A stretch of DNA of 43,492 nucleotides from Candidatus Omnitrophota bacterium. Its GTDB lineage: Bacteria > Omnitrophota > Gorgyraeia > JABMRN01 > RBG-13-46-9. The stretch covers positions 1 through 43,492 of the forward strand of contig JADHYM010000008.1 of assembly GCA_016782445.1 (NCBI GenBank), given 5' to 3'. Within the stretch, counting starts at the first letter, position 1. Every line of letters begins with the position of its first letter. Shown in pieces: positions 30,371-43,299 of the stretch. A model generated the notes under the pieces. The model was not told the DNA's origin, ran no database searches, and was given only the letters and a program-made list of their open reading frames with translations. A program made the translations under genes and the position numbers.

Positions 30371-31450
<1,080 letters not shown>

Positions 31451-31471
31451 AAATTATTCTTCCCAAAAAAG

Positions 31472-32257
31472 TTGCAATTCTATAGAATAAGAAAATTTCC
31501 CACCAAGCTCACAATTGTCTTTATCATATGCCTTGTATTTTTTTTAAATCCGGACTTGCGGCTTTGGCTTAAAAAATTTACTTTTCATGTCGCCTACATA
31601 CCTGCGCGTGCCTTTCAAAACATAAAAAACAGCTTCGCAAAAACAGAACGCTTAAACGAAGAAAACCTGGATCTCAAGCGTAGGGTAGGGGAGCTGTCAG
31701 TTGAACTCTCGCGAATGAAACAAAAAAAGGAGCAAATTGAACGCCTTGAGGAACTTTTGGGCTTCAAGCTATCCTTGCGATATGAAGCAAAAGCCTCCCG
31801 TGTCATAGCGCGGGATATCGCCGGCTTTAGAAAGTTTTTTGTAATCGATAAAGGCTCTAGAGACGGAATAAACGAAAACACCCCATGCGTGAGCCTTGAG
31901 GGAATAGTGGGAAACGTTGTCGCTGTTTCGCCCAATACCTCAAAGGTCATGCTCATTACGGACCCGGCTTCCCGCATAGGCGTAACTGTTACTTCATCTT
32001 GCGAGACCGGTCTCATGTTGGGCTCTGTCGAGGGGCAGTGCAGAGTGATCTATCTTGGCCTTGACGGGGACATAAAGGAAGGTGATGAGGTCGTTACAAG
32101 CGGTACCAGCTCTCTTTTTCCGGAGGGTTTGCCGGTCGGCACGATAAAACATGTCGGGATAGAGCGCACGAAATTATATAGGTATGCTGAAATAATTCCT
32201 TACGCCGAGATGAGTAAAATCAGGGAAGTCCTTGCCATGAATACCGGTGAGCGATGA
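31472..32257 (+). CDS. mreC: Rod-shape determining protein MreC
   Basis: A 261-residue bitopic elongasome protein. A membrane helix (about residues 11-31) is followed by a coiled coil (about 45-90: ERLNEENLDLKRRVGEL) and the beta-barrel domain with FFVIDKGSRDGINENTPC, GIVGNVVAVSPNTSKVMLI and the DVVTSG-like segment DEVVTSGTSSLFPEGLPVG. MreC links the MreB cytoplasmic system to PBP2. The start is TTG at 31472, with no clear ribosome binding site; no better start precedes the membrane helix. The frame is the same as mreB, eight codons after its stop. Confidence 0.93.
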   Translation: MQFYRIRKFPTKLTIVFIICLVFFLNPDLRLWLKKFTFHVAYIPARAFQNIKNSFAKTERLNEENLDLKRRVGELSVELSRMKQKKEQIERLEELLGFKLSLRYEAKASRVIARDIAGFRKFFVIDKGSRDGINENTPCVSLEGIVGNVVAVSPNTSKVMLITDPASRIGVTVTSSCETGLMLGSVEGQCRVIYLGLDGDIKEGDEVVTSGTSSLFPEGLPVGTIKHVGIERTKLYRYAEIIPYAEMSKIREVLAMNTGER

Positions 32258-32772
32258 GCGTAAAGGCGCGGCTCAGGGTAACGCTTTATCTCTTAGTATT
32301 TTGTTTGATGATATGCGAGATTTTTATCTCGAGCGCGGCCCGAACAGTTTATGTTAAAACGGAACTCTTGCTTCTTGTAACCGTTTTTTCAGGCCTATAC
32401 TTAGGTCCGCGATACGGCGCCGAAATGGGATTTTTTTCAGGCTTGCTAAAAGATCTTATAAGCATAGGCCCTTTCGGAATAGCTGCGCTTTCTTTTTTTA
32501 TCGTGGGGCTTTTATGTGGATATCTAAAAAATCGCCTTACGCGGGAAACTTTTTTTACTCAAGTTTTAGTCTCGTTCGTTTCAAGCGTGTTTTTTTCTTT
32601 TATGGTTCTAGGATGCTTAAAAACTTTTTCCGGGGTACTTCCGGACAGAATAATTCTTAAAAATATTTTATTCCAGGCGCTCTTGACCGGAGCCTTGTCA
32701 TTGCCCTTCTTTTTCGTATTTGGAGCGGTATTTAGAAGGGCCGGGTCTCAAGTTTTCGAGGCAAACCCGTGA
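32254..32772 (+). CDS. mreD: Rod-shape determining protein MreD
   Basis: A 172-residue integral membrane protein with about five to six helices. MreD sequences are weakly conserved, but the family-like segment GPRYGAEMGFFSGLLKDLISIGPFGIAALSFFI (residues 50-82 region) with a Gly-Pro-rich turn is recognisable. MreD supports MreC and elongasome assembly. Position between mreC and mrdA is decisive. The ATG overlaps the mreC stop (ATGA) and its own stop overlaps the GTG of the next gene (GTGA). Confidence 0.88.
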   Translation: MSVKARLRVTLYLLVFCLMICEIFISSAARTVYVKTELLLLVTVFSGLYLGPRYGAEMGFFSGLLKDLISIGPFGIAALSFFIVGLLCGYLKNRLTRETFFTQVLVSFVSSVFFSFMVLGCLKTFSGVLPDRIILKNILFQALLTGALSLPFFFVFGAVFRRAGSQVFEANP

Positions 32773-34490
32773 GGCTCAGGATTCTGGGAGGCGTAATATT
32801 TCTTTTTTATTTTGTTACGGTTCTCGGGCTTTTTAACGCTCAGGTTACAAACTATAAAATTTATCGGGGCCTCTCGGAAAAAAATCGAATCAGAATACTG
32901 CCGCTCGTGTCCCCAAGGGGAAAAATCTATGACCGCTCGAAGAAGCTTCTTGTGAGCAACAGAATTGCTTTTACGGTCGGGGTGGTGTACCAGGAGCTCG
33001 GGGATAAAGAAAAAATCCTTCGTATCCTAAGTGATAAATTGGGTATCCCGGAAAAAAAACTTTCAGGAAAAATTGAAGAAGCCGGGATAAATCCCTTCGT
33101 GCCTTACAGCGTGGCAGACGAAGTAGATAAAGAAAAAGCTATACAGCTGGAAGAAATGAAATACAAACTGCAGGGCGTTATAGTTACCGCAAGGCCCATG
33201 CGGGACTATCTCTACGGCGAAAAGCTCTCGCATGTTACAGGCTATCTTGGAAAAATAAGTAAGGAGGAACTCGGAAAATTTCGTACATACGGATACATGC
33301 TCCAGGACCTTGTCGGGAAGGATGGACTGGAACGGGAATACAACGAGTATTTAAGAGGCAAAAGTGGCGGACTTCAGGTAGAAGTGGATTCCAAGGGCCG
33401 GCAGTTAAGGGTGCTGGCACTCAAGGAGCCTGCGGAAGGAAAAGATCTTTATCTTGAGATCGATCTGGAGCTTCAGGATTTCTGCAACGACGTGCTGGGA
33501 GAAAAAAGTGGCGCGATTATTGTCATGGATCCTTTTACAGGAGGCGTGTTAGCTCTTGCAAGTCGTCCGGGCTATGATCCCAATGCATTCGTGAGTTCTG
33601 AATCGGCAGGTGAAGTAAATAAGATTTTGCAGGACAGGGCGTTATACCCGCTTCTCGATCGCGCAATCGCATGCGCTTATCCCCCTGGCTCGGTTTTTAA
33701 GGTTGTCGTGGCCGCCTCTGTCCTCGATACGGGAAAACTCAACGAAACCAAGACACTTTTTTGCGGGGGAAGTTACCGAGTGGGCAACAGGGCTTTTAAA
33801 TGCTGGAAGAAGCCCGGCCACGGCACACAGAGTATAAGGGAAGCCATAAAAAATTCCTGCAACGTATTTTTTTACCAGCTTGGGTTTATAGCGGGAACAG
33901 ATTTACTGGCAGAGTATGCGCGACGCTTCGGTTTCGGTGAAAAAACCGGAATCGACCTCCCGGGGGAATCAGCCGGTTTCGTACCCACTATCGCATGGAA
34001 AAAAGAAACCCTCAAGGAGTCATGGTTCAAGGGCGAGACAGCCAATTACGCCATAGGCCAGGGATATCTTCTGGTTACGCCTATACAAGTCCTGCGCATG
34101 ATGGCTGCGGTTGCGAACGGCGGGGAGCTTCTAGTGCCGCACGTGGTAGATCGCATAGAGAACGTCGAGCTGTCACAGGGGAAGCCGCAGAAAATTGACA
34201 TTAATGGCGAGTCGCTCGAAATAATACGGGAAGGCTTAAGGATGGTTGTCAATGACCCGCATGGTACAGGAATCTACGGCCGGGTAAAAGGCGTGGTAGT
34301 AGCCGGCAAAACGGGAACGGCCGAGAACTCTCTCGGTAAGGCGCACGGCTGGTTTTCAGGTTTTGCGCCTTTTGAAGGACCGAAGCTTTGTCTTGTTGTT
34401 TTTGTCGAGCATGGCGGAAAGGGCGGAGTGGGCGCAAGCATGATAGCGCGTAAAGTCATAGAGAAGGCAAGAGGGCTGGGACTTTTATGA
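32769..34490 (+). CDS. mrdA: Elongation penicillin-binding protein 2
   Basis: A class B transpeptidase of the elongasome, partner of RodA. The 573-residue protein has one N-terminal membrane helix (residues about 3-22), a dimerisation domain beginning SPRGKIYDRSKKLLVSNR and a transpeptidase domain. Motifs are S308-V-F-K311 (nucleophile), S363-C-N365 and K514-T-G. It is distinct from FtsI (5611-7314) but shares the domain plan; the call as PBP2 comes from the mreD-mrdA-rodA context. The start is GTG at 32769, overlapping the mreD stop. The 3' end overlaps rodA by four bases. Confidence 0.94.
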   Translation: MRLRILGGVIFLFYFVTVLGLFNAQVTNYKIYRGLSEKNRIRILPLVSPRGKIYDRSKKLLVSNRIAFTVGVVYQELGDKEKILRILSDKLGIPEKKLSGKIEEAGINPFVPYSVADEVDKEKAIQLEEMKYKLQGVIVTARPMRDYLYGEKLSHVTGYLGKISKEELGKFRTYGYMLQDLVGKDGLEREYNEYLRGKSGGLQVEVDSKGRQLRVLALKEPAEGKDLYLEIDLELQDFCNDVLGEKSGAIIVMDPFTGGVLALASRPGYDPNAFVSSESAGEVNKILQDRALYPLLDRAIACAYPPGSVFKVVVAASVLDTGKLNETKTLFCGGSYRVGNRAFKCWKKPGHGTQSIREAIKNSCNVFFYQLGFIAGTDLLAEYARRFGFGEKTGIDLPGESAGFVPTIAWKKETLKESWFKGETANYAIGQGYLLVTPIQVLRMMAAVANGGELLVPHVVDRIENVELSQGKPQKIDINGESLEIIREGLRMVVNDPHGTGIYGRVKGVVVAGKTGTAENSLGKAHGWFSGFAPFEGPKLCLVVFVEHGGKGGVGASMIARKVIEKARGLGLL

Positions 34491-35581
34491 ACGGTAGTTC
34501 AAAACGGCAACTGGGAAAATTCGACTTCGTTATTTTTTTGGCAACTGTTTTTTTGAGCATATTCGGGCTTTTTTGCTTATATAGCGCGGCAGCCCAATAT
34601 TTTTCAAAGGCAATTATTCTTCGGCAAGCCATATGGCTTTTAGCGGGGCTTCTTATTTTTTGCGTGGCGCTTTTCATCGACTATAGAAAAATCGTTAATT
34701 TCTCATATTTATTCTACGGGATAACAATTCTTTTACTGATTCTTGTCCTTGCCTTCGGCCAGACGCGCGGCGGCTCGCATCGGTGGATAAACCTGGGGCT
34801 TTTTAATCTGCAGCCGTCGGAACTAGCGAAAATAGCGCTCGTATTCGCGCTTTCGACGTATCTTGGGCACAGGAAAAGGGACTCTGAGAAACCGTCATTT
34901 GTAGTGGGCGCGGCGTTAATCACGCTTCCTGTATTTTGCCTTATTCTCATTGAACCGGACCTCGGAACGGCTCTTCTTTTATTGCCCACGGCCCTTGCGC
35001 TTCTATTCATCGGCGGTGCAAAGCTGCGTTATCTTATATCGATAGCTCTTGCGTCACTTTTGTGCGTTCCGGTTTTCTGGCATTTCCTGAAGGATTACCA
35101 GAAAGAACGACTTTTGGTTTTTATCAATCCCAACATAGACCCGTTGGGGGCCGGCTACACCATAATACAATCTAAGATTGCCATAGGCTCGGGCGGCATT
35201 TTCGGGAAAGGGTGGCTTAGTGGTACCCAGAATACGCTCAATTTTCTTCCGGAGCGTCACACGGATTTCATATTTTCGGTCGTAGGAGAAGAATGGGGAC
35301 TTCTGGGCTGTCTCGTGTTTGTTTTTCTTTACTGCCTCATCGTATATAGGGGCTTGCGAATTGTAAGCCTGACAAGCGATATATATGGAAAGCTTATCGC
35401 AACCGGGTTTATAACCATATTCGCAGTTCAATCGGTCGTAAATATCGCGATGACAATAGGACTGTCGCCCGTGGTAGGGCTTACGTTACCCCTTGTAAGC
35501 TATGGAGGTTCCAGTCTAATCATTACACTTTTCTCATTAGGCGTTGTTTTAAACATAGGCATGCGACGGAGCCTATTCTAG
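34487..35581 (+). CDS. rodA: SEDS peptidoglycan polymerase RodA
   Basis: RodA is the elongation glycosyltransferase that polymerises lipid II with PBP2. The 364-residue protein has about ten helices and SEDS signatures: HRWINLGLFNLQPSELAKIA, EPDLGTALLLLPTALALLF, LPERHTDFIFSVVGEEWGLLG and LPLVSYGGSSLI. PERHTDFIFSVVGEEWG is the RodA version of the motif seen as PESYTDFIFSIVGEELG in FtsW. It closes the mre operon; a new promoter begins seven bases after its stop. Confidence 0.95.
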   Translation: MNGSSKRQLGKFDFVIFLATVFLSIFGLFCLYSAAAQYFSKAIILRQAIWLLAGLLIFCVALFIDYRKIVNFSYLFYGITILLLILVLAFGQTRGGSHRWINLGLFNLQPSELAKIALVFALSTYLGHRKRDSEKPSFVVGAALITLPVFCLILIEPDLGTALLLLPTALALLFIGGAKLRYLISIALASLLCVPVFWHFLKDYQKERLLVFINPNIDPLGAGYTIIQSKIAIGSGGIFGKGWLSGTQNTLNFLPERHTDFIFSVVGEEWGLLGCLVFVFLYCLIVYRGLRIVSLTSDIYGKLIATGFITIFAVQSVVNIAMTIGLSPVVGLTLPLVSYGGSSLIITLFSLGVVLNIGMRRSLF

Positions 35582-35587
35582 GCTATA

Positions 35588-35616
35588 TTGACAAAATAAT
35601 GTATATGGAGTATACT
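35588..35616 (+). promoter_or_regulatory. Promoter of type IV pilus operon
   Basis: TTGACA (35588-35593), exactly 17 bases, TATACT (35611-35616): close to consensus. Transcription would start about 35623, and GGAGGGG just before the ATG at 35648 is a strong ribosome binding site. The promoter separates the pilus operon from rodA. Confidence 0.78.
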
Positions 35617-35647
35617 TAAATTGCAATATAATAATTGGAGGGGTTAA

Positions 35648-37075
35648 ATGAAGATGCACGAGACCGTAAAGAAAATATCCGTATTACCTCGGGGCATACG
35701 CTATAAGCTTCTCATAGCGTTTAGCCTGATGTCTGTCATACCACTGCTTGTCGTAGGTTACGTCATCACCAATTTTATCTTTCTGAATGAAACAAAGGAG
35801 ATCACCTACGTAAGTACCCTCATTTTGATATGCATAATTATCGCATGGCTGGGGCTCCTGCTCGCAAAAAGCATAATTGACAGGGTGATAGATATTTCGG
35901 TCGAGTCGCGAATCATAGCGAGCGGCAATTTTAATACGCGCATAGTGATTGATGCGAGCGATGAGATAGGCCAGATTGGCGAAACGATGAACCTTTTGAC
36001 GAGGAGAATAAGGGATAATATCCTGGAGCTCAAGGATTATCAGGAAAAAACACGGGAAATCAACATGGAAATCCAGAAAAAAGTCCTTGTGTTATCAAAT
36101 CTTATGCAGGTAGGAGACCTTATTTCCGCGTCCGCGAATATAGACAGCATTATTAACCTCGTATTGAGCAAGCTGTCGCAGCTCTATGAAGGCGGTTTTG
36201 CAGCGCTCTACACCTTTGACGAAGAGCAGAAAAATTTGAAGCACCGCTCATCCTTTAACATAACGCATAACGAGCTTCTCAATCTCGAGATTGTCGCCGG
36301 CCAAGGTCTGTTTGGAGGGGTGATTCCATCGAGAAAGCACCTGATCGTTGATGCATCGTCGGGTTCGCTTGAGAGCGTCTCATTCAAATCCCGCTTTGGC
36401 CTTGACAACGCGGTTATATTTCCGATTTTCCTGATGCGGGATGTGCGCGCAGTTCTTCTGGTCGGAAACAGTATCAAAAATTTCACTTACACGAACGAAG
36501 ACCTTGACATAATCAACGTATTTGCGAAACAACTTTCGATCGCGATCGAAAGCAATATGCTTATAAGAAAAGCCGAAAGCCTCGCGATAACAGACGACGT
36601 TACAAGCCTTTTTAATAAGAAGTATATTAGAGAGCGCTTGAGTGAGGAGATACGGAGGGCGCAGATCACGCACAGGCCGTGCTCGTTAATTCTCATGAAC
36701 ATAGATGATTTCAGGAAATACGAATCTGAAAATGGTCCGGCAGAGGCTGAAATGGCGCTAAAGAAAGTTGCCAAGGTTTTTATCGAATTTTCGTCTCCCG
36801 CTGGAAAGGCAGGCAGGATCGACAGAGATTCGTTCGCGCTCATCCTTCCGGAGGCAAGCAAAAAAGAGGCCATGCAGACCGCCGAAAAGATCAGGCAACA
36901 TATAGAGCGTTCGGATTTATCCGGGGACAAGAAACGTAAACTTACTACGAGCGGTGGGGTGAGCGAAAATCCGCTCGATGGCTCGACAGCCGAAGAAATT
37001 TTTAATAAAGCAGAGCTTGCGTTTCTGGAAGCAAAACAAAAGGGGAAAAATAAAGTGTTAGCGTCAGGAGTATAA
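35648..37075 (+). CDS. Membrane HAMP-GAF protein with degenerate GGDEF domain
   Basis: The 475-residue protein has two N-terminal membrane helices (about 20-43 and 52-75) with almost no periplasmic loop, a HAMP-like linker (to about 125), a coiled-coil segment, a GAF-like sensor domain (about 165-300) and a C-terminal GGDEF fold (about 310-475). The fold is clear (AITDDVTSLFNKKYIRERL, NIDDFRKYE, GGVSENPLDGSTAEEIF, AFLEAKQKGKNKV). The active-site loop reads R390-I-D-R-D-S-F396 where R-x-G-G-D-E-F is expected, so cyclic-di-GMP synthesis is unlikely. It may bind nucleotide or act as a scaffold. As first gene of the pilus operon, two bases before pilT, it probably tunes pilus activity; that is inference. 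Confidence 0.85.
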   Translation: MKMHETVKKISVLPRGIRYKLLIAFSLMSVIPLLVVGYVITNFIFLNETKEITYVSTLILICIIIAWLGLLLAKSIIDRVIDISVESRIIASGNFNTRIVIDASDEIGQIGETMNLLTRRIRDNILELKDYQEKTREINMEIQKKVLVLSNLMQVGDLISASANIDSIINLVLSKLSQLYEGGFAALYTFDEEQKNLKHRSSFNITHNELLNLEIVAGQGLFGGVIPSRKHLIVDASSGSLESVSFKSRFGLDNAVIFPIFLMRDVRAVLLVGNSIKNFTYTNEDLDIINVFAKQLSIAIESNMLIRKAESLAITDDVTSLFNKKYIRERLSEEIRRAQITHRPCSLILMNIDDFRKYESENGPAEAEMALKKVAKVFIEFSSPAGKAGRIDRDSFALILPEASKKEAMQTAEKIRQHIERSDLSGDKKRKLTTSGGVSENPLDGSTAEEIFNKAELAFLEAKQKGKNKVLASGV

Positions 37076-37076
37076 T

Positions 37077-38144
37077 ATGGGAAAAGATGTAAAAAAACTA
37101 TTAAAGTTGATGCTTGAGAAAAATGCCTCGGACCTGCATATAACCGCAAATTCTTCTATACACTTCAGGGTAGACGAAAAGCTTCTTCCGTTTGAAGAAG
37201 ATCTTTCTCCCGAAGAGGCAAAAGAGGCGGTGTACAGCCTGCTTAAACCGGCGCAGAAGGAGCAGTTTGAAAAGGATAAAGAGCTGGACTTCTCGTTTGA
37301 GATGAAGGGCTTTGCGCGGTTCAGGGTAAACGTGTTCTATCAGCGTGGCTCTGTAGGATGCGCGATACGCTTTATTCCGTTCGAAATATGGGGTTTTGAT
37401 AAGTGTGGCATACCGAAAGAGCTCGCCCTGGAGATCTGTAAAAAACCCAAGGGCCTTGTTCTCGTTACGGGCGCTACCGGTAGTGGTAAATCCACTACGC
37501 TCGCCTCGATGGTTGACTATATAAATTCAACAAAGCAGAACCATATAATAACAATAGAGGATCCGATCGAATTTGTGTACAGGAATAAAAAATCCATAGT
37601 GAACCAAAGAGAGGTATACTCAGATACCAGCTCGTTCGGGGCCGCCCTAAAACACGTGTTGAGGCAGGACCCCAACATAATACTGATAGGTGAAATGCGC
37701 GACCTTGAGACCATAGAGAGCGCTTTGGTAATCGCTGAAACCGGCCACCTTGTTTTTGCGACGCTGCATACCTCGGACGCGTCGCAGACGATAAACAGGA
37801 TCGTAGATGTTTTCCCTGCCTATCAGCAGCAACAGATAAGAACCCAGCTTTCCTTTGTTCTTTTGGCTGTACTTTCCCAGCAGCTCATACCGCATTCAAG
37901 CGGCAAGGGTCGGGTTTTGGCCACCGAGGTTTTAATAACTAACCCGGCGGTGAAGAGCCTGATAAGAGAGGGCAAGATCCACCAGATATATTCTACGATC
38001 CAGACTTCTCAGAAAGAGCACATGAGGACTATGAATCAGTCCCTGGCGGATTTATGCAAAAAAGGCCTGATCACAAAAGATGCGGCTTTTTCAAAGTCTA
38101 TATACCCGGATGAGCTCAAGAGGCTAATGGGATTGGAAAAATAA
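37077..38144 (+). CDS. pilT: Type IV pilus retraction ATPase PilT
   Basis: PilT powers pilus retraction. The 355-residue protein has the N-terminal PAS-like half with ASDLHITANSSIHFRVD and GCAIRFIP. The RecA-like ATPase has Walker A GATGSGKSTTLAS near residue 131, Asp box HIITIEDPIEFVY, Walker B ILIGEMRDLETIESAL and the His box GHLVFATLHTSDASQTINRIVDVFP. It lacks the N-terminal MshEN domain and zinc motif of PilB, which fits PilT. It begins two bases after the GGDEF-like gene and ends one base before the next gene. Confidence 0.95.
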   Translation: MGKDVKKLLKLMLEKNASDLHITANSSIHFRVDEKLLPFEEDLSPEEAKEAVYSLLKPAQKEQFEKDKELDFSFEMKGFARFRVNVFYQRGSVGCAIRFIPFEIWGFDKCGIPKELALEICKKPKGLVLVTGATGSGKSTTLASMVDYINSTKQNHIITIEDPIEFVYRNKKSIVNQREVYSDTSSFGAALKHVLRQDPNIILIGEMRDLETIESALVIAETGHLVFATLHTSDASQTINRIVDVFPAYQQQQIRTQLSFVLLAVLSQQLIPHSSGKGRVLATEVLITNPAVKSLIREGKIHQIYSTIQTSQKEHMRTMNQSLADLCKKGLITKDAAFSKSIYPDELKRLMGLEK

Positions 38145-38145
38145 T

Positions 38146-38601
38146 ATGGCGCCCTTCAAACGCATAGTAAAAAAACAACTGGGTGAACTCTTGATCGAAA
38201 GGGGCGTTATAACGAAGACGCACCTCGAGACAGCGCTAAAAATACAGAAAACAAAAGGTGGCTTAGTGGGCGAGATCCTCGTGGGCCTCGGTTTTACTAA
38301 AGAAGAGGAAATCGCACAGGCCCTTACGATACAGTACGGCTTCCCATTTTTGCCGCTTCAGAGTTACGAATTAAACGAAGCCACTGTAAAACTCGTGCCT
38401 GAGAACGTGGCGCGCCAATATTGCCTCATCGCCATCGATAAAATAGGGGACACCCTAACCGTTGCGATGTCAAACCCATTGAACGCGAAAGCCGTAGAGG
38501 ACATAGAGTTTCTGACGCATTGTAAGGTCCAGGTTTTTGTAAGCACGCTCTCCGATGTTAATGACGCGGTAAATAAGATCTACGGCAAGGGAAAGAAGTA
38601 A
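38146..38601 (+). CDS. Stand-alone MshEN-like (GspE N-terminal) domain protein
   Basis: A 151-residue protein consisting only of the domain normally found at the N-terminus of GspE/PilB/MshE ATPases. Its first 65 residues follow the cyclic-di-GMP-binding MshEN pattern: QLGELLIERGVITKTHLETAL..Q then VGEILVGLGFTKEEEIAQAL..QYGFP. The first motif has Gln where MshE has Arg. The rest (EATVKLVPENVARQYCLIA..., LTVAMSNPLNAKAVEDIEFLT) is the second half of the same domain. No ATPase follows in frame, and the gene ends normally 18 bases before the next start. It may be a separate nucleotide sensor or adaptor for the ATPases; the role is inferred. Confidence 0.8.
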   Translation: MAPFKRIVKKQLGELLIERGVITKTHLETALKIQKTKGGLVGEILVGLGFTKEEEIAQALTIQYGFPFLPLQSYELNEATVKLVPENVARQYCLIAIDKIGDTLTVAMSNPLNAKAVEDIEFLTHCKVQVFVSTLSDVNDAVNKIYGKGKK

Positions 38602-38619
38602 CCCGAGGGTTTATACTTA

Positions 38620-40365
38620 ATGGAAGGCAATATCCTGTCGATCAGGGACAAAATAACAAAAGTCTTGATTGATAAAAAGCTTCTCACCGAAAACGACATA
38701 AAAAAAGCGGTTGAGCTACAAAAAAATAAAGGCGGGAAACTAAGCGACATATTTGTTGGAATGGGCCTTGTTTCCCGTAGTGACCTCACCCTCGCGTTAA
38801 GCGAGGAGCTTGGCATACCCCCCATAGACCTTTCCCGATATACCATATCGCAGGAGCTCGTAAAACTTATTCCTAAAAAAACAGCGAAAAACTACCGCGT
38901 CATGCCGGTTTCCGCGGTAGGGAAGCTATTGACCCTTGCGACAGCGGATCCCTTAAATGTGTTCGCTATCGACGACATCTCAACGCTTACAGGCTACAAG
39001 ATAAGCGTTGTCATAGCGGACGAAAACGATATTAACCACGCAATAGCTGAAAACTACGAGGCCGGCGCCACAGAAGCCATAGAGAAAATTATAGGTGGAA
39101 TGGAGCCGCAGGATATCAGGATGGTTGAAGAAGCGGATCGCGATAGCCTTAGTTCGACAGATCTCATAAAGCTGACCCAGGATGCGCCTGTTGTGAAGGT
39201 CACCAACATGGTACTTGCGGAGGGCGTTCGGCGCAGGGCGAGCGATATCCTCATAGAGCCGCTTGAAAACGCGCTTCGCATACGCTACCGCATAGACGGC
39301 ATTCTGCAAGAGGCCGAGAGGCCTCCCAAGCGCATACACCAGGCGCTCGTATCGCGGATCAAGGTCATGTCAGACCTGAACATAGCCGAGCGTCGCTTGC
39401 CGCAGGACGGGCGTTTCAAACTAAAAATACATCACAGTGAGGTAGATTTCAGAGTTTCTATTATACCATCAAGTACGGGCGAAAAGGTAGCGCTTCGGAT
39501 ACTTGATAAGTCACAGGCTATGCTTAATCTGGACAAGCTCGGGTTTGAGGAAAAAACGCTCGCGGATATAAAAGCAGTTTCGAAGCGGCCCCATGGAATG
39601 ATCCTAAGTTGCGGCCCGACAGGCTGCGGCAAGACCACAACGCTCTACTCTATTTTAAAATTCGTGGATTCACCGGAAAAAAATATCATTACGGCAGAAG
39701 ACCCTGTCGAATACCAGCTTGAAGGCATAAACCAGCTTACTGTGCAGCCTGAAATGGGCCTTACTTTCTCTTCGAGTCTGCGCTCGTTTTTACGGCAGGA
39801 TCCGGATATCATAATGGTCGGCGAAATCAGGGATTTCGAGACGGTTGATATCGCGATTAAAGCAGCTCTTACGGGCCACCTCGTATTGAGTACGCTGCAC
39901 ACGACGACTGCAAGTGGCTCTATTATACGCCTCGTAAATATGGGCGTTGAGCCTTTTCTTATAACTTCGTCATTGATACTCGTTGTGGCGCAAAGGCTCG
40001 TAAGGCGTATTTGTCTTAATTGTCGCGAAGAGTATAAAATTACCGATGAGACGGCCAGGAAGCTTAAGTTGAAAGCCGGCGTGAAGCGCGTGGCGTACCA
40101 TGGAAAAGGTTGCAAGGAGTGCAGATCGACCGGTTACAGAGGGAGAGTGGGCCTGGCTGAAACGCTGGTCCTTTCCCCTAAAATACGGGAACTCGTAATG
40201 AAAAAAGCGCAGGAATATGAGATAAAAGCCGCTTCGCGCCGGGAAGGTATGACAACGCTCAGGGAAAATGGGATAGAAAAAGCACTGCGTGGCGAAACAA
40301 CATTAGAGGAGATTCTAAGGGTAACAGTGGGCGACCAGGAGATCAATATGCAGGACAAAGGCTAA
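38620..40365 (+). CDS. Type IV pilus/type II secretion assembly ATPase, PilB/GspE type (copy 1)
   Basis: A 581-residue extension ATPase. The N-terminal MshEN-like domain (about 1-150) includes IPPIDLSRYTISQELVKLIP. The ATPase core has SDILIEPLENALRIRYRIDG, Walker A CGPTGCGKTTTLYSIL near residue 330, Walker B PDIIMVGEIRDFETVDIAI and TGHLVLSTLHTTTASGSI. A four-cysteine zinc motif (RRICLNCREEY...GCKECRSTGYRGR) is typical of PilB/GspE. Its N-domain lacks several MshEN ligand positions. It is a tandem paralogue of the next gene; which one serves extension in a pilus and which a secretion-like pseudopilus is open. Separated from the preceding gene by 18 bases. Confidence 0.92.
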   Translation: MEGNILSIRDKITKVLIDKKLLTENDIKKAVELQKNKGGKLSDIFVGMGLVSRSDLTLALSEELGIPPIDLSRYTISQELVKLIPKKTAKNYRVMPVSAVGKLLTLATADPLNVFAIDDISTLTGYKISVVIADENDINHAIAENYEAGATEAIEKIIGGMEPQDIRMVEEADRDSLSSTDLIKLTQDAPVVKVTNMVLAEGVRRRASDILIEPLENALRIRYRIDGILQEAERPPKRIHQALVSRIKVMSDLNIAERRLPQDGRFKLKIHHSEVDFRVSIIPSSTGEKVALRILDKSQAMLNLDKLGFEEKTLADIKAVSKRPHGMILSCGPTGCGKTTTLYSILKFVDSPEKNIITAEDPVEYQLEGINQLTVQPEMGLTFSSSLRSFLRQDPDIIMVGEIRDFETVDIAIKAALTGHLVLSTLHTTTASGSIIRLVNMGVEPFLITSSLILVVAQRLVRRICLNCREEYKITDETARKLKLKAGVKRVAYHGKGCKECRSTGYRGRVGLAETLVLSPKIRELVMKKAQEYEIKAASRREGMTTLRENGIEKALRGETTLEEILRVTVGDQEINMQDKG

Positions 40366-40367
40366 AG

Positions 40368-42080
40368 ATGAAGGATAAGGCGCTTTCCGACAGATTGCTT
40401 GATGTGCTCGAAAAGAAGAATATTTTAACCTTACCTGAGCGTAAAAGAATTCTCGAGATCCGCAAGAAAAAAGGCGGCTCGGTCGGTAGAGTACTAGTGA
40501 GAGAAAATATTATAAACCAAAGGGAGCTTCTCGTTCTTTTGAGCCAAGAGCTCGACATACCGCCGATAGACCTCTCGAAGTACAGGCTCGACCCGTCGCT
40601 TGGGAAGCTCGTGCCGGAGAAAATAGCCCGTAAATATAATCTTGTACCTATATCGAAGCTTGGTAACAGGCTTACACTGGCAATGTCAGACCCGACGGAT
40701 ATAATGGCGCTGGATGATTTACGGACAGTCGTATTGGCAACCGTTGACGTTGTTATCGCTGCGGAGAATGACATAAACGACGCCCTCTCGAGGGTCTACG
40801 GAAGCACAACCGAGGATATGTCAAAAATAATGAAAGAGGTTGAGCCGGGAGAGATCGAGGTAATAGAAGAGGAAAGAATAGACGTAGCGGATATAACCGC
40901 TGAGAGCCAGAGGGCGCCGATCGTAAAGATCGTTTCGCTCATATTAAACGAGGCACTTTTAAAAAGAGCCAGCGACATACATATAGAGCCTACTGAAAAG
41001 GATTTACGGGTACGGTACCGGGTGGATGGGGCGCTCCACGAAGCAATGAGGCTGCCCAAAAAAAATCAGAACGCCGTTATAGCGCGGTTAAAAATAATGT
41101 CGAAACTCGATATCACTGAAAGCAGGATTCCCCAGGACGGGCGGTTTAAAATAAAATTCGGGGACAAAGAAATAGATTTTCGCGTAAGCATTCTTCCCAT
41201 CGCCTTTGGCAATAAGATCGTATTAAGAGCGCTTGATAAGGCAAATTTAAACGTTGGACTGGACAAACTCGGTTTTTTGCCTCAGCCGCTCGAGGCGTTC
41301 AAGAAGGCGCTCGCGAGGCCATATGGGATGATCCTTCTTACCGGCCCGACCGGGAGCGGAAAATCCACAACGCTTTATTCCATAGTGAACAAACTGAACA
41401 CGCCGGAAGTGAATATAATAACAGTTGAGGATCCTGTTGAGTACCAGGTCGAAGGAATTACCCAGGTACAGGCGAAGCCGGACATAGGCCTTACATTTGC
41501 GAGTGGCCTCCGTTCGATACTCAGACAAAATCCGGATGTAGTAATGGTAGGCGAAATAAGGGATTTTGAAACAGCTGATATCGCTATAAAGGCATCGCTC
41601 ACCGGGCAGATCGTTTTAAGTACACTACACACTAATGATGCTGCAGGCGCTGTAACGCGCCTCATCGACATGAATGTGGAGCCGTTTTTAGTTTCTTCAA
41701 GCCTTGTTCTTGTAGCGGCGCAGAGGCTGTGCAGGAAAATATGTCCGAGGTGTAAAGAGAAGGTTGATATTCCGCGTAAAGTTTTTGAGCGCATGGAGGG
41801 CGTAAACGCGGATGCCATTATGAAGAAAAAACCTTTCTATACGGCAAAGGGTTGCCCCCGTTGCAGTGAAACAGGATACATGGGGAGGTTTGGATTGCTT
41901 GAGTCGCTTGTTATAGATGACACGATTCGTGACATGATCATAAAAAGGGCATCAACCGACGAAATAAAGAAGTATGCCATTTCCAAAGGAATGATGACAT
42001 TGCGCGACAGCGCGATGGAGCTTTTTACCCGGGGCGTTACCACGCTCGAAGAGGTAATGCGGATTACAGCGGAGGAATAA
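40368..42080 (+). CDS. Type IV pilus/type II secretion assembly ATPase, PilB/GspE type (copy 2)
   Basis: The 570-residue protein has the same layout as copy 1. Its N-domain (IPPIDLSKYRLDPSLGKLVPEKIA) is followed by SDIHIEPTEKDLRVRYRVDG, Walker A TGPTGSGKSTTLYSIV near residue 327, Walker B PDVVMVGEIRDFETADIAI and a zinc motif (RKICPRCKEKV...GCPRCSETGYMGRFG). It starts two bases after copy 1 and ends one base before pilC. Direct adjacency to pilC and a canonical GSGKS P-loop make this the likelier main pilus-extension ATPase; that is inference. Tandem duplication with divergence is visible by eye. Confidence 0.92.
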   Translation: MKDKALSDRLLDVLEKKNILTLPERKRILEIRKKKGGSVGRVLVRENIINQRELLVLLSQELDIPPIDLSKYRLDPSLGKLVPEKIARKYNLVPISKLGNRLTLAMSDPTDIMALDDLRTVVLATVDVVIAAENDINDALSRVYGSTTEDMSKIMKEVEPGEIEVIEEERIDVADITAESQRAPIVKIVSLILNEALLKRASDIHIEPTEKDLRVRYRVDGALHEAMRLPKKNQNAVIARLKIMSKLDITESRIPQDGRFKIKFGDKEIDFRVSILPIAFGNKIVLRALDKANLNVGLDKLGFLPQPLEAFKKALARPYGMILLTGPTGSGKSTTLYSIVNKLNTPEVNIITVEDPVEYQVEGITQVQAKPDIGLTFASGLRSILRQNPDVVMVGEIRDFETADIAIKASLTGQIVLSTLHTNDAAGAVTRLIDMNVEPFLVSSSLVLVAAQRLCRKICPRCKEKVDIPRKVFERMEGVNADAIMKKKPFYTAKGCPRCSETGYMGRFGLLESLVIDDTIRDMIIKRASTDEIKKYAISKGMMTLRDSAMELFTRGVTTLEEVMRITAEE

Positions 42081-42081
42081 G

Positions 42082-43299
42082 ATGCCAACATATAAATATC
42101 TTGCGAAAGAAAAAACCGGAAAAACGCTAAAAGGTGTTTTTGAAGCCGCTTCGAAGGAAGAGGCCGTAGAGATGCTTCGAAAAAAGGACGTTGTAATTGT
42201 ATCACTGGAAGAGGCAAAAAAAGGAGCTTCATCCATCTCTGGATTTAAGTTCAATAAGGGCATAAAATTAGACGAGCTTGTAATATTTTCACGCCAGCTC
42301 GCCACGATGGTCGACGCCGGAATTCCCATCGTAAATGCCCTCGACATACTGGGAGAACAGATCGAAAACGTGTCCTTCAAACAGGTTATCTCAAAGATCA
42401 GGGATGATGTTGAGACCGGGTCGAGCCTCTCAGAGGCATTTGCTAAGCACGCGAATATTTTTTCCGACCTTTTTATCAATATGGTAAGGGCAGGGGAGTC
42501 AAGCGGTATGCTGGATGAGATATTGGACAGGGTTGCCATGTATCTTGAAAAAACGTCATCGCTTCAGAAAAAAATAAAATCAGCGCTAGTCTATCCCGTA
42601 GCCGTCGTTATCATGGCGCTTGGCATTACGGCTTTTTTGATGCTTAATGTTATACCGGTCTTTAAGGATATTTATGAAGGCTTCGGTGCGACCTTGCCTA
42701 CGCCCACAGCGGTTCTTCTCGCAATAAGCGACTTCATGCGGCACTATTTTTACGTAGCCATTGTTTTCGCGGTTGCAGCCGGCTTTGCCATTTTGCGTTA
42801 TATAAAAACAGATAAGGGAGGGCTTGCCCTTGACAGGCTCAAGCTCAATATGCCGATTTTTGGTGTTCTTGCAAAAAAAATAGCCGTGGGAAAATTTACC
42901 CGTACGCTATCAACGTTAATACGAAGCGGCGTTCCCATTTTGGATTCTCTTGATATCGTAGGGAAAACTGCCGGGAACAGGGTCATAGAGATAGCAGTAG
43001 AGAGCGTGCGACAGAATGTTAAGGAGGGCGAGGCCATATCAGAGCCGCTGGCAAAAAGCGGGGTTTTTCCTCCCATGGTCGTGCGCATGGTGTCAGTAGG
43101 TGAGCAGACAGGGGAACTCGAGAAAATGCTCACAAAAATAGCGGATTTTTACGACGACCAGGTTGACGCTGCAGTAAGCGGGCTCACGAGCCTCATCGAG
43201 CCGCTTATAATAGCGTTCTTAGGCATTGTTGTAGGCGGCATCGTTATCTGCATGTTCCTTCCGATCCTTAAAATCACTAGTGTTGTCGGCGCCGGCTAA
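42082..43299 (+). CDS. pilC: Type IV pilus inner-membrane platform protein PilC (GspF family)
   Basis: PilC is the inner-membrane platform on which PilB and PilT act. The 405-residue protein starts with YKYLAKEKTGKTLKGVFEA and has the two repeated GspF domains. The first is around 68-190 (FSRQLATMVDAGIPIVNALDIL, FINMVRAGESSGMLDEIL). The second is around 270-390 (FTRTLSTLIRSGVPILDSLDIVG, MVRMVSVGEQTGELEKML). Membrane helices lie near 170-193, 215-240 and at the C-terminus (LIIAFLGIVVGGIVICMFLPI). The length is typical. The gene is complete and closes the visible operon; pilins and pilMNOPQ are not in the window. Confidence 0.95.
   Translation: MPTYKYLAKEKTGKTLKGVFEAASKEEAVEMLRKKDVVIVSLEEAKKGASSISGFKFNKGIKLDELVIFSRQLATMVDAGIPIVNALDILGEQIENVSFKQVISKIRDDVETGSSLSEAFAKHANIFSDLFINMVRAGESSGMLDEILDRVAMYLEKTSSLQKKIKSALVYPVAVVIMALGITAFLMLNVIPVFKDIYEGFGATLPTPTAVLLAISDFMRHYFYVAIVFAVAAGFAILRYIKTDKGGLALDRLKLNMPIFGVLAKKIAVGKFTRTLSTLIRSGVPILDSLDIVGKTAGNRVIEIAVESVRQNVKEGEAISEPLAKSGVFPPMVVRMVSVGEQTGELEKMLTKIADFYDDQVDAAVSGLTSLIEPLIIAFLGIVVGGIVICMFLPILKITSVVGAG

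Follow-up and report, generated by a model that had tools for sequence, protein, structure and literature searches.

Activity of the MSHA pilus in Vibrio cholerae is controlled by c-di-GMP via the extension ATPase MshE (PMC7096442, PMC5013675). The receptor in this system (PDB 5HTL) is the N-terminal domain of the ATPase itself, where two copies of the 24-residue motif RLGxx(L/V/I)(L/V/I)xxG(L/V/I)(L/V/I)xxxxLxxxLxxQ, separated by a 5-residue spacer, form the ligand pocket (PMC5013675); studies of Thermus thermophilus PilF have widened the first place of the motif to Arg, Lys or Leu (PMC11731258). PilF carries several MshEN copies, GSPII-A, GSPII-B and GSPII-C, in one chain of one extension machine, and some of these copies bind the ligand and one does not (PMC11731258, PMC12002112). 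The pocket of GSPII-A is blocked by an extended, Ncap-stabilised helix 1, and restoring the consensus did not by itself bring binding back, further changes being needed, which shows that presence of the motif alone is insufficient for c-di-GMP binding (PMC12002112). In Xanthomonas citri, PilB has an MshEN fold without the motif, and the c-di-GMP receptor is a separate EAL-domain protein, FimX, acting via PilZ (PMC8389850). Acinetobacter baylyi possesses two phylogenetically distinct extension ATPases, PilB and TfpB, and a small separate regulator, CpiA, an inhibitor of PilB to which that work assigns no role as a c-di-GMP receptor (PMC8213720). Finally, Myxococcus xanthus MXAN_7500 is an MshEN protein with an intact motif (PMC8844925). 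Non-ATPase MshEN proteins, a degenerate PilB working with FimX, and the two motors PilB and TfpB are already known, each separately (PMC5013675, PMC8389850, PMC8213720).

The operon considered here lies on a window of 43,492 nucleotides, the whole stretch of DNA that was analyzed, from a genome of 1.0 Mb (86% complete) whose relatives are Omnitrophota. Six plus-strand genes with spacing of 1 to 18 bases occupy positions 35648-43299. They encode, in this order, a membrane HAMP-GAF-GGDEF protein (475 aa, 35648..37075; Pfam, GGDEF E=2.6e-27), a PilT-type retraction ATPase (355 aa, 37077..38144; Pfam T2SSE, PilT type), a stand-alone MshEN-domain protein (151 aa, 38146..38601; Pfam MshEN only, E=2.3e-18), two extension-type ATPases, PilB1 (581 aa, 38620..40365) and PilB2 (570 aa, 40368..42080), both matching Pfam MshEN and T2SSE, and the PilC platform protein (405 aa, 42082..43299; Pfam T2SSF). 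All these genes were found where the first-pass annotation had placed them, including the 151-residue protein between pilT and the PilB-type genes, in which Pfam recognizes MshEN and nothing else. The contig stops soon after pilC; in Ca. Velamenicoccus archaeovorus a pilin-like gene and PilM follow downstream of pilC, and with PilT, PilB and PilC in the window and pilin and PilM known from the latter genome the locus is a type IVa pilus operon. A candidate sigma-70-like promoter, TTGACA-17-TATACT (35588..35616, plus strand, 11/12 consensus bases), sits within the 66 bases that separate rodA from the GGDEF gene and is a possible start of the pilus-motor operon, such sites being no commoner in the region than in shuffled sequences. 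The rodA gene, assigned with Pfam, lies directly upstream of the operon next to genes that we take, by sequence recognition, to be mreB, mreC, mreD and mrdA; the rod-shape genes mreB-mreC-mreD-mrdA-rodA occupy 30377-35648, and rodA keeps its place in many relatives. At 44 loci a radical-SAM-like gene, so labeled by inspection, is inserted between rodA and the GGDEF gene, and is absent there in the window.

The stand-alone protein shares with MshE the fold, the two 24-residue motifs and the 5-residue spacer. At the pocket positions 9, 10, 11, 18, 25, 29, 32 and 38, 39, 40, 47, 54, 58, 61 of V. cholerae MshE (PMC5013675) it has Q, L, G, G, L, L, Q and L, V, G, G, I, L, Q, respectively, retaining the G-G-Q-Q polar contacts and the Leu clusters. 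In its own numbering, motif I (residues 11-34, 38176..38247, plus strand, QLGELLIERGVITKTHLETALKIQ) contains Q11-L12-G13...G20...L27...L31...Q34, and motif II (residues 40-63, 38263..38334, plus strand, LVGEILVGLGFTKEEEIAQALTIQ) contains L40-V41-G42...G49...I56...L60...Q63, the motif being defined as in PMC5013675 and PMC11731258. Q11 is the sole key position off the extended consensus, and V41 and I56 are conservative replacements. In particular, Gln, which is outside the tested R/K/L set, fills the first place of motif I in 63% of free domains; at the first place of motif II, 93-98% of them have Leu, the same replacement of Arg as in GSPII-B, the Thermus PilF copy that binds with nanomolar affinity (PMC11731258). 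An alignment of 56 free domains contains seven invariant columns, three of which are the ligand contacts G13, G42 and Q63; L27, L31, Q34, L40 and I56 are nearly invariant. The entropy of the contact positions is 0.58 vs 1.52 for the remaining subdomain (permutation fraction 0.00025).

The AlphaFold2 model of the free protein, built from 56 aligned sequences (pLDDT 92, pTM 0.80), has as its best PDB match MshE with c-di-GMP (5htl, TM 0.77-0.83), followed by c-di-GMP-bound PilF GSPII-B, and by both Pfam match and fold the protein belongs to the MshEN family (PF05157). Helix 1 of the model begins at residue 12, and the stretch equivalent to the GSPII-A extension, K5-R6-I7-V8-K9-K10, has neither a Ser, Thr or Asp cap nor an acidic or Gln residue at N3, suggesting that the helix-capping motif that blocks binding in GSPII-A is absent. 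On the strength of these sequence features we propose that the free 151-residue protein is a c-di-GMP receptor subunit. Its natural ligand could also be another cyclic dinucleotide such as 3',3'-cGAMP, given that V. cholerae MshEN binds cGAMP too, weakly (PMC5013675), and that the product of the Omnitrophota GGDEF proteins is putative; however, MshEN strongly prefers c-di-GMP and both half-sites of the free domain keep the guanine-reading glycine, so we regard this substitution of ligand as barely plausible.

The pocket of the two ATPases that follow is changed. At the same positions in MshE numbering, PilB1 has K, I, T, K, I, V, Q and K, L, S, G, L, L, E (substitutions G11T, G18K, G40S and Q61E), and PilB2 has R, L, L, N, R, L, R and S, V, G, N, L, L, E (substitutions G11L, G18N, L25R, Q32R, G47N and Q61E), so that neither N-domain in the window retains the intact motif of a c-di-GMP-binding PilB of the MshE type. 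Several of the positions altered in PilB1 and PilB2 are also changed in XpsE of Xanthomonas, which has lost binding (PMC5013675). A total of 285 Omnitrophota genomes were searched for relatives of the free domain, and the residues G11, G40, Q32 and Q61 (MshE numbering) were scored after removal of redundant sequences. The complete set of these four polar contacts occurs in 139/143 free domains, in 0/127 PilB1 N-domains and in 0/101 PilB2 N-domains, with Fisher p of about 1e-73 vs PilB1 and 1e-64 vs PilB2, both values being overstated owing to the relatedness of the sequences. Of the four exceptions among the free domains, three have Lys for Q32 and one is an outlier; in PilB1 and PilB2, positions G11, G40 and Q61 are highly variable. 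The first-pass annotation had claimed that the free domain keeps the motif better than either ATPase N-domain, and both the aligned pocket positions and the counts bear this out; intact motifs in both ATPases, the counter-case it had named, occur nowhere in these sets.

The conserved Gly, Gln and Leu residues might instead serve folding or protein contacts in a crown subunit of the motor that has a structural or assembly role and binds no nucleotide. The Gln at position 1 of motif I and the use of a motif-less PilB N-domain as a docking site for PilZ in X. citri (PMC8389850) are compatible with such a role, whereas the ATPase N-domains lose the ligand residues and yet keep their Pfam MshEN match, which means that these residues are not needed for the fold; moreover, conservation of the free domain falls on the ligand contacts, and its best fold match is the ligand-bound form of MshE. 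A purely structural subunit thus appears quite improbable. The rates of divergence can be compared in 79 operons, where the mean pairwise identity is 61% for the free domain, 60-62% for the ATPase cores, and 49% and 44% for the ATPase N-domains; in rate of change the free domain is on a par with the slowly evolving motor core and slower than the ATPase N-domains.

Outside their N-domains the ATPases are well preserved. Both PilB1 and PilB2 of the window have intact Walker A and GEIRD motifs and, as PilB-type extension ATPases, retain Walker A, GE-RD, LHT, QDGR and two C-x2-C pairs. Among PilB1 and PilB2 orthologues, respectively, Walker A is kept in 76/79 and 77/77, GE-RD in 74/79 and 76/77, and the C-x2-C pairs in 78/79 and 74/77 proteins. 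Since the ATPase motifs and cysteine pairs are kept, neither protein looks dead. A tree built from 155 ATPase domains groups PilB1 and PilB2 in one phylum-wide clade each (support 0.89 and 1.00, respectively), and therefore the tandem pair predates the sampled families.

Most genomes of the class to which the window belongs hold a close relative of the free protein (about 50-74% identity), in almost every case encoded by a frame of about 150 codons, and the order GGDEF-(pilT)-MshEN-pilB1-pilB2-(extra gene)-pilC is retained across families and in other classes. The pilB1 gene directly follows the free MshEN gene in 138/144 loci, with a median gap of 8 bases, some of the 144 loci being one genome retrieved by two routes; co-conservation beside pilB, which the first-pass annotation had suggested checking, is thus observed. 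The split design that it had put forward, with a separate intact domain and diverged ATPases, also holds up, being a phylum-wide and ancient arrangement and no oddity of the window genome. A strict either-or rule, by which a genome would have either the free gene or an ATPase with an intact motif, was considered and rejected: in 13 class-level genomes the free gene is not detected and an intact-motif ATPase is present, but this ATPase belongs to neither the PilB1 nor the PilB2 clade. It is therefore another paralogue, and what the pattern reflects is absence of the whole operon and not a swapped sensor. Genome G104 retains both ATPases with the free gene undetected, so the motors may work without the free subunit.

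The free domain could be a c-di-GMP receptor that merely shares the operon and acts on PilM, PilC, PilT or some other protein. Its contact with PilB is hypothetical, and its gene comes after pilT in some operons; against this, its neighbor is nearly always pilB1 and not pilT, pilT is missing from many free-domain loci, and it is precisely the two ATPases of the same operon that have lost the ligand motif. We consider a target other than PilB unlikely.

The arrangement differs from each of the described systems. In MshE the ATPase senses the ligand by its own N-domain, whereas in Omnitrophota the intact domain is a protein of its own, encoded next to ATPases with degenerate N-domains. All copies of PilF reside in one chain, whereas here the intact one has a gene to itself and two ATPases are present. 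The situation in X. citri is similar in combining a motif-less PilB with a separate receptor, but the Omnitrophota candidate is a stand-alone paralogue of the PilB N-domain and not an EAL protein acting via PilZ. The two extension ATPases and the small separate protein recall A. baylyi, and the intact free motif recalls MXAN_7500, which, unlike the Omnitrophota protein, is not reported as a partner of motif-less motors (PMC8844925). The combination of these features on a phylum-wide scale, with a freed paralogue of the motor N-domain as the receptor, was not found in the open-licence papers searched.

The loop of the GGDEF domain encoded by the first gene of the operon is G-R-I-D-R-D-S-F (residues 389-396), with the degenerate signature D-R-D-S-F (residues 392-396, 36821..36835, plus strand) in place of GGDEF; the GG(D/E)EF signature of diguanylate cyclases is lacking, and the protein is probably catalytically dead, in agreement with the earlier description of this loop as inactive-looking. 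That description applies to the family of the window, where the loop is degenerate in four sampled members, but does not extend to all operons: a perfect GGDEF is kept in two operons (L080, L081) of family f2 of the same class, and some operons with the free domain have no GGDEF gene. Because its decay is lineage-specific and the gene is missing from some operons, the GGDEF protein does not define the split design. Eight GGDEF domains are encoded in the window genome, namely four with GGEEF, one with SGEEF, the DRDSF domain of the operon and two degenerate ones; the latter two lack the signature loop and end histidine-kinase-like proteins (L041 and L042, contig 35 of the same genome). This genome also has five HD_5 (HD-GYP) matches; its nine PilZ proteins are all encoded outside the operon, and no EAL domain was found in it at 86% completeness. 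An HD-GYP phosphodiesterase gene occurs after pilB2 in 38/144 operons, including that of Ca. Velamenicoccus archaeovorus, and both the HD and GYP motifs are recognized in 34 of these 38 genes. It is usually located just before pilC, for example at L310:11421-12500 (REC-HD-GYP) and L315:401-1468. On the simplest reading, the operon once had its own cyclase, receptor and motors, the cyclase now decaying in some lineages and a phosphodiesterase being present in others.

Since the free protein keeps the pocket residues and both motors have lost theirs, pilus extension is probably under a detachable sensor. We hold it moderately probable that the 151-residue protein serves in trans as the c-di-GMP receptor subunit of an extension machine for type IVa pili that has two motors; that it binds the ligand, touches the ATPases and acts in favor of extension is what we infer for it, the direction by analogy with MshE, through which c-di-GMP promotes pilus function. 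In such a machine c-di-GMP would come from diguanylate cyclases encoded elsewhere in the genome, and perhaps, in sister lineages, from the GGDEF protein of the operon as well, and HD-GYP phosphodiesterases would remove it. c-di-GMP would bind the four-helix pocket of the free MshEN domain, and the loaded subunit would dock on the N-terminal crown of PilB1, PilB2 or both, whose MshEN domains, no longer binding the ligand, would act as docking and coupling parts. Docking would tip the balance to pilus extension over PilT-driven retraction. A PilB N-domain without the motif can indeed dock proteins, as PilZ does on X. citri PilB (PMC8389850). A more specific version, which we offer tentatively and with some doubt, is a three-protein motor in which PilB1 and PilB2 form a mixed hexamer or a stacked pair and free MshEN is a stoichiometric, ligand-gated subunit of the crown; if so, sensing has moved out of the motor chain across the whole phylum.

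Members of the Omnitrophota occur widely, have not been brought into culture and are often regarded as predators or as dependent on a host, and the type IVa pilus is one of their most common organs of attachment (PMC10066038). The open-licence papers searched make no mention of c-di-GMP together with Omnitrophota, and the operon offers a testable signal pathway for their pili. If the proposed receptor role is true, nature would offer here a PilB motor whose sensor is a protein of its own, 17 kDa in size. The effect of c-di-GMP on the motor could then be supplied, withdrawn and titrated in vitro, something that the fused designs of MshE and PilF do not permit. It may also bear on why some bacteria have two extension ATPases (PMC11656802).

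Several variations were seen in the search. A fusion of the free domain with PilB1 was sought and none was found, the longer ATPases carrying a C-terminal PilZ or REC domain and no second MshEN; plasmid records gave two weak matches only and no free-domain operon. A frame of 24,655 aa with an MshEN domain in genome G045 was ruled out as a giant gene, since it consists of masked N. A second free MshEN gene, its ligand residues intact, follows pilB2 in families f19 and f26, and such a second gene lies between pilB2 and pilC at L116:8659-9108, L119:2617-3054, L123:2369-2824, L125:8430-8897 and L132:8177-8632. Family f9 has a second split system, in which a free intact MshEN protein accompanies an ATPase (about 710 aa) that combines a degenerate MshEN with a PilZ domain at its C-terminus. 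PilB-like ATPases with C-terminal PilZ, each preceded by a free MshEN gene with an intact motif, are encoded at L305:4309-6423, L307:4648-6795 and L308:4432-6591, and another PilB-like ATPase, at L296:3222-5363, ends in a response-regulator receiver domain. Finally, a protein of 765 aa (L138:5438-7732) has an N-terminal MshEN domain without an ATPase or any other Pfam match.
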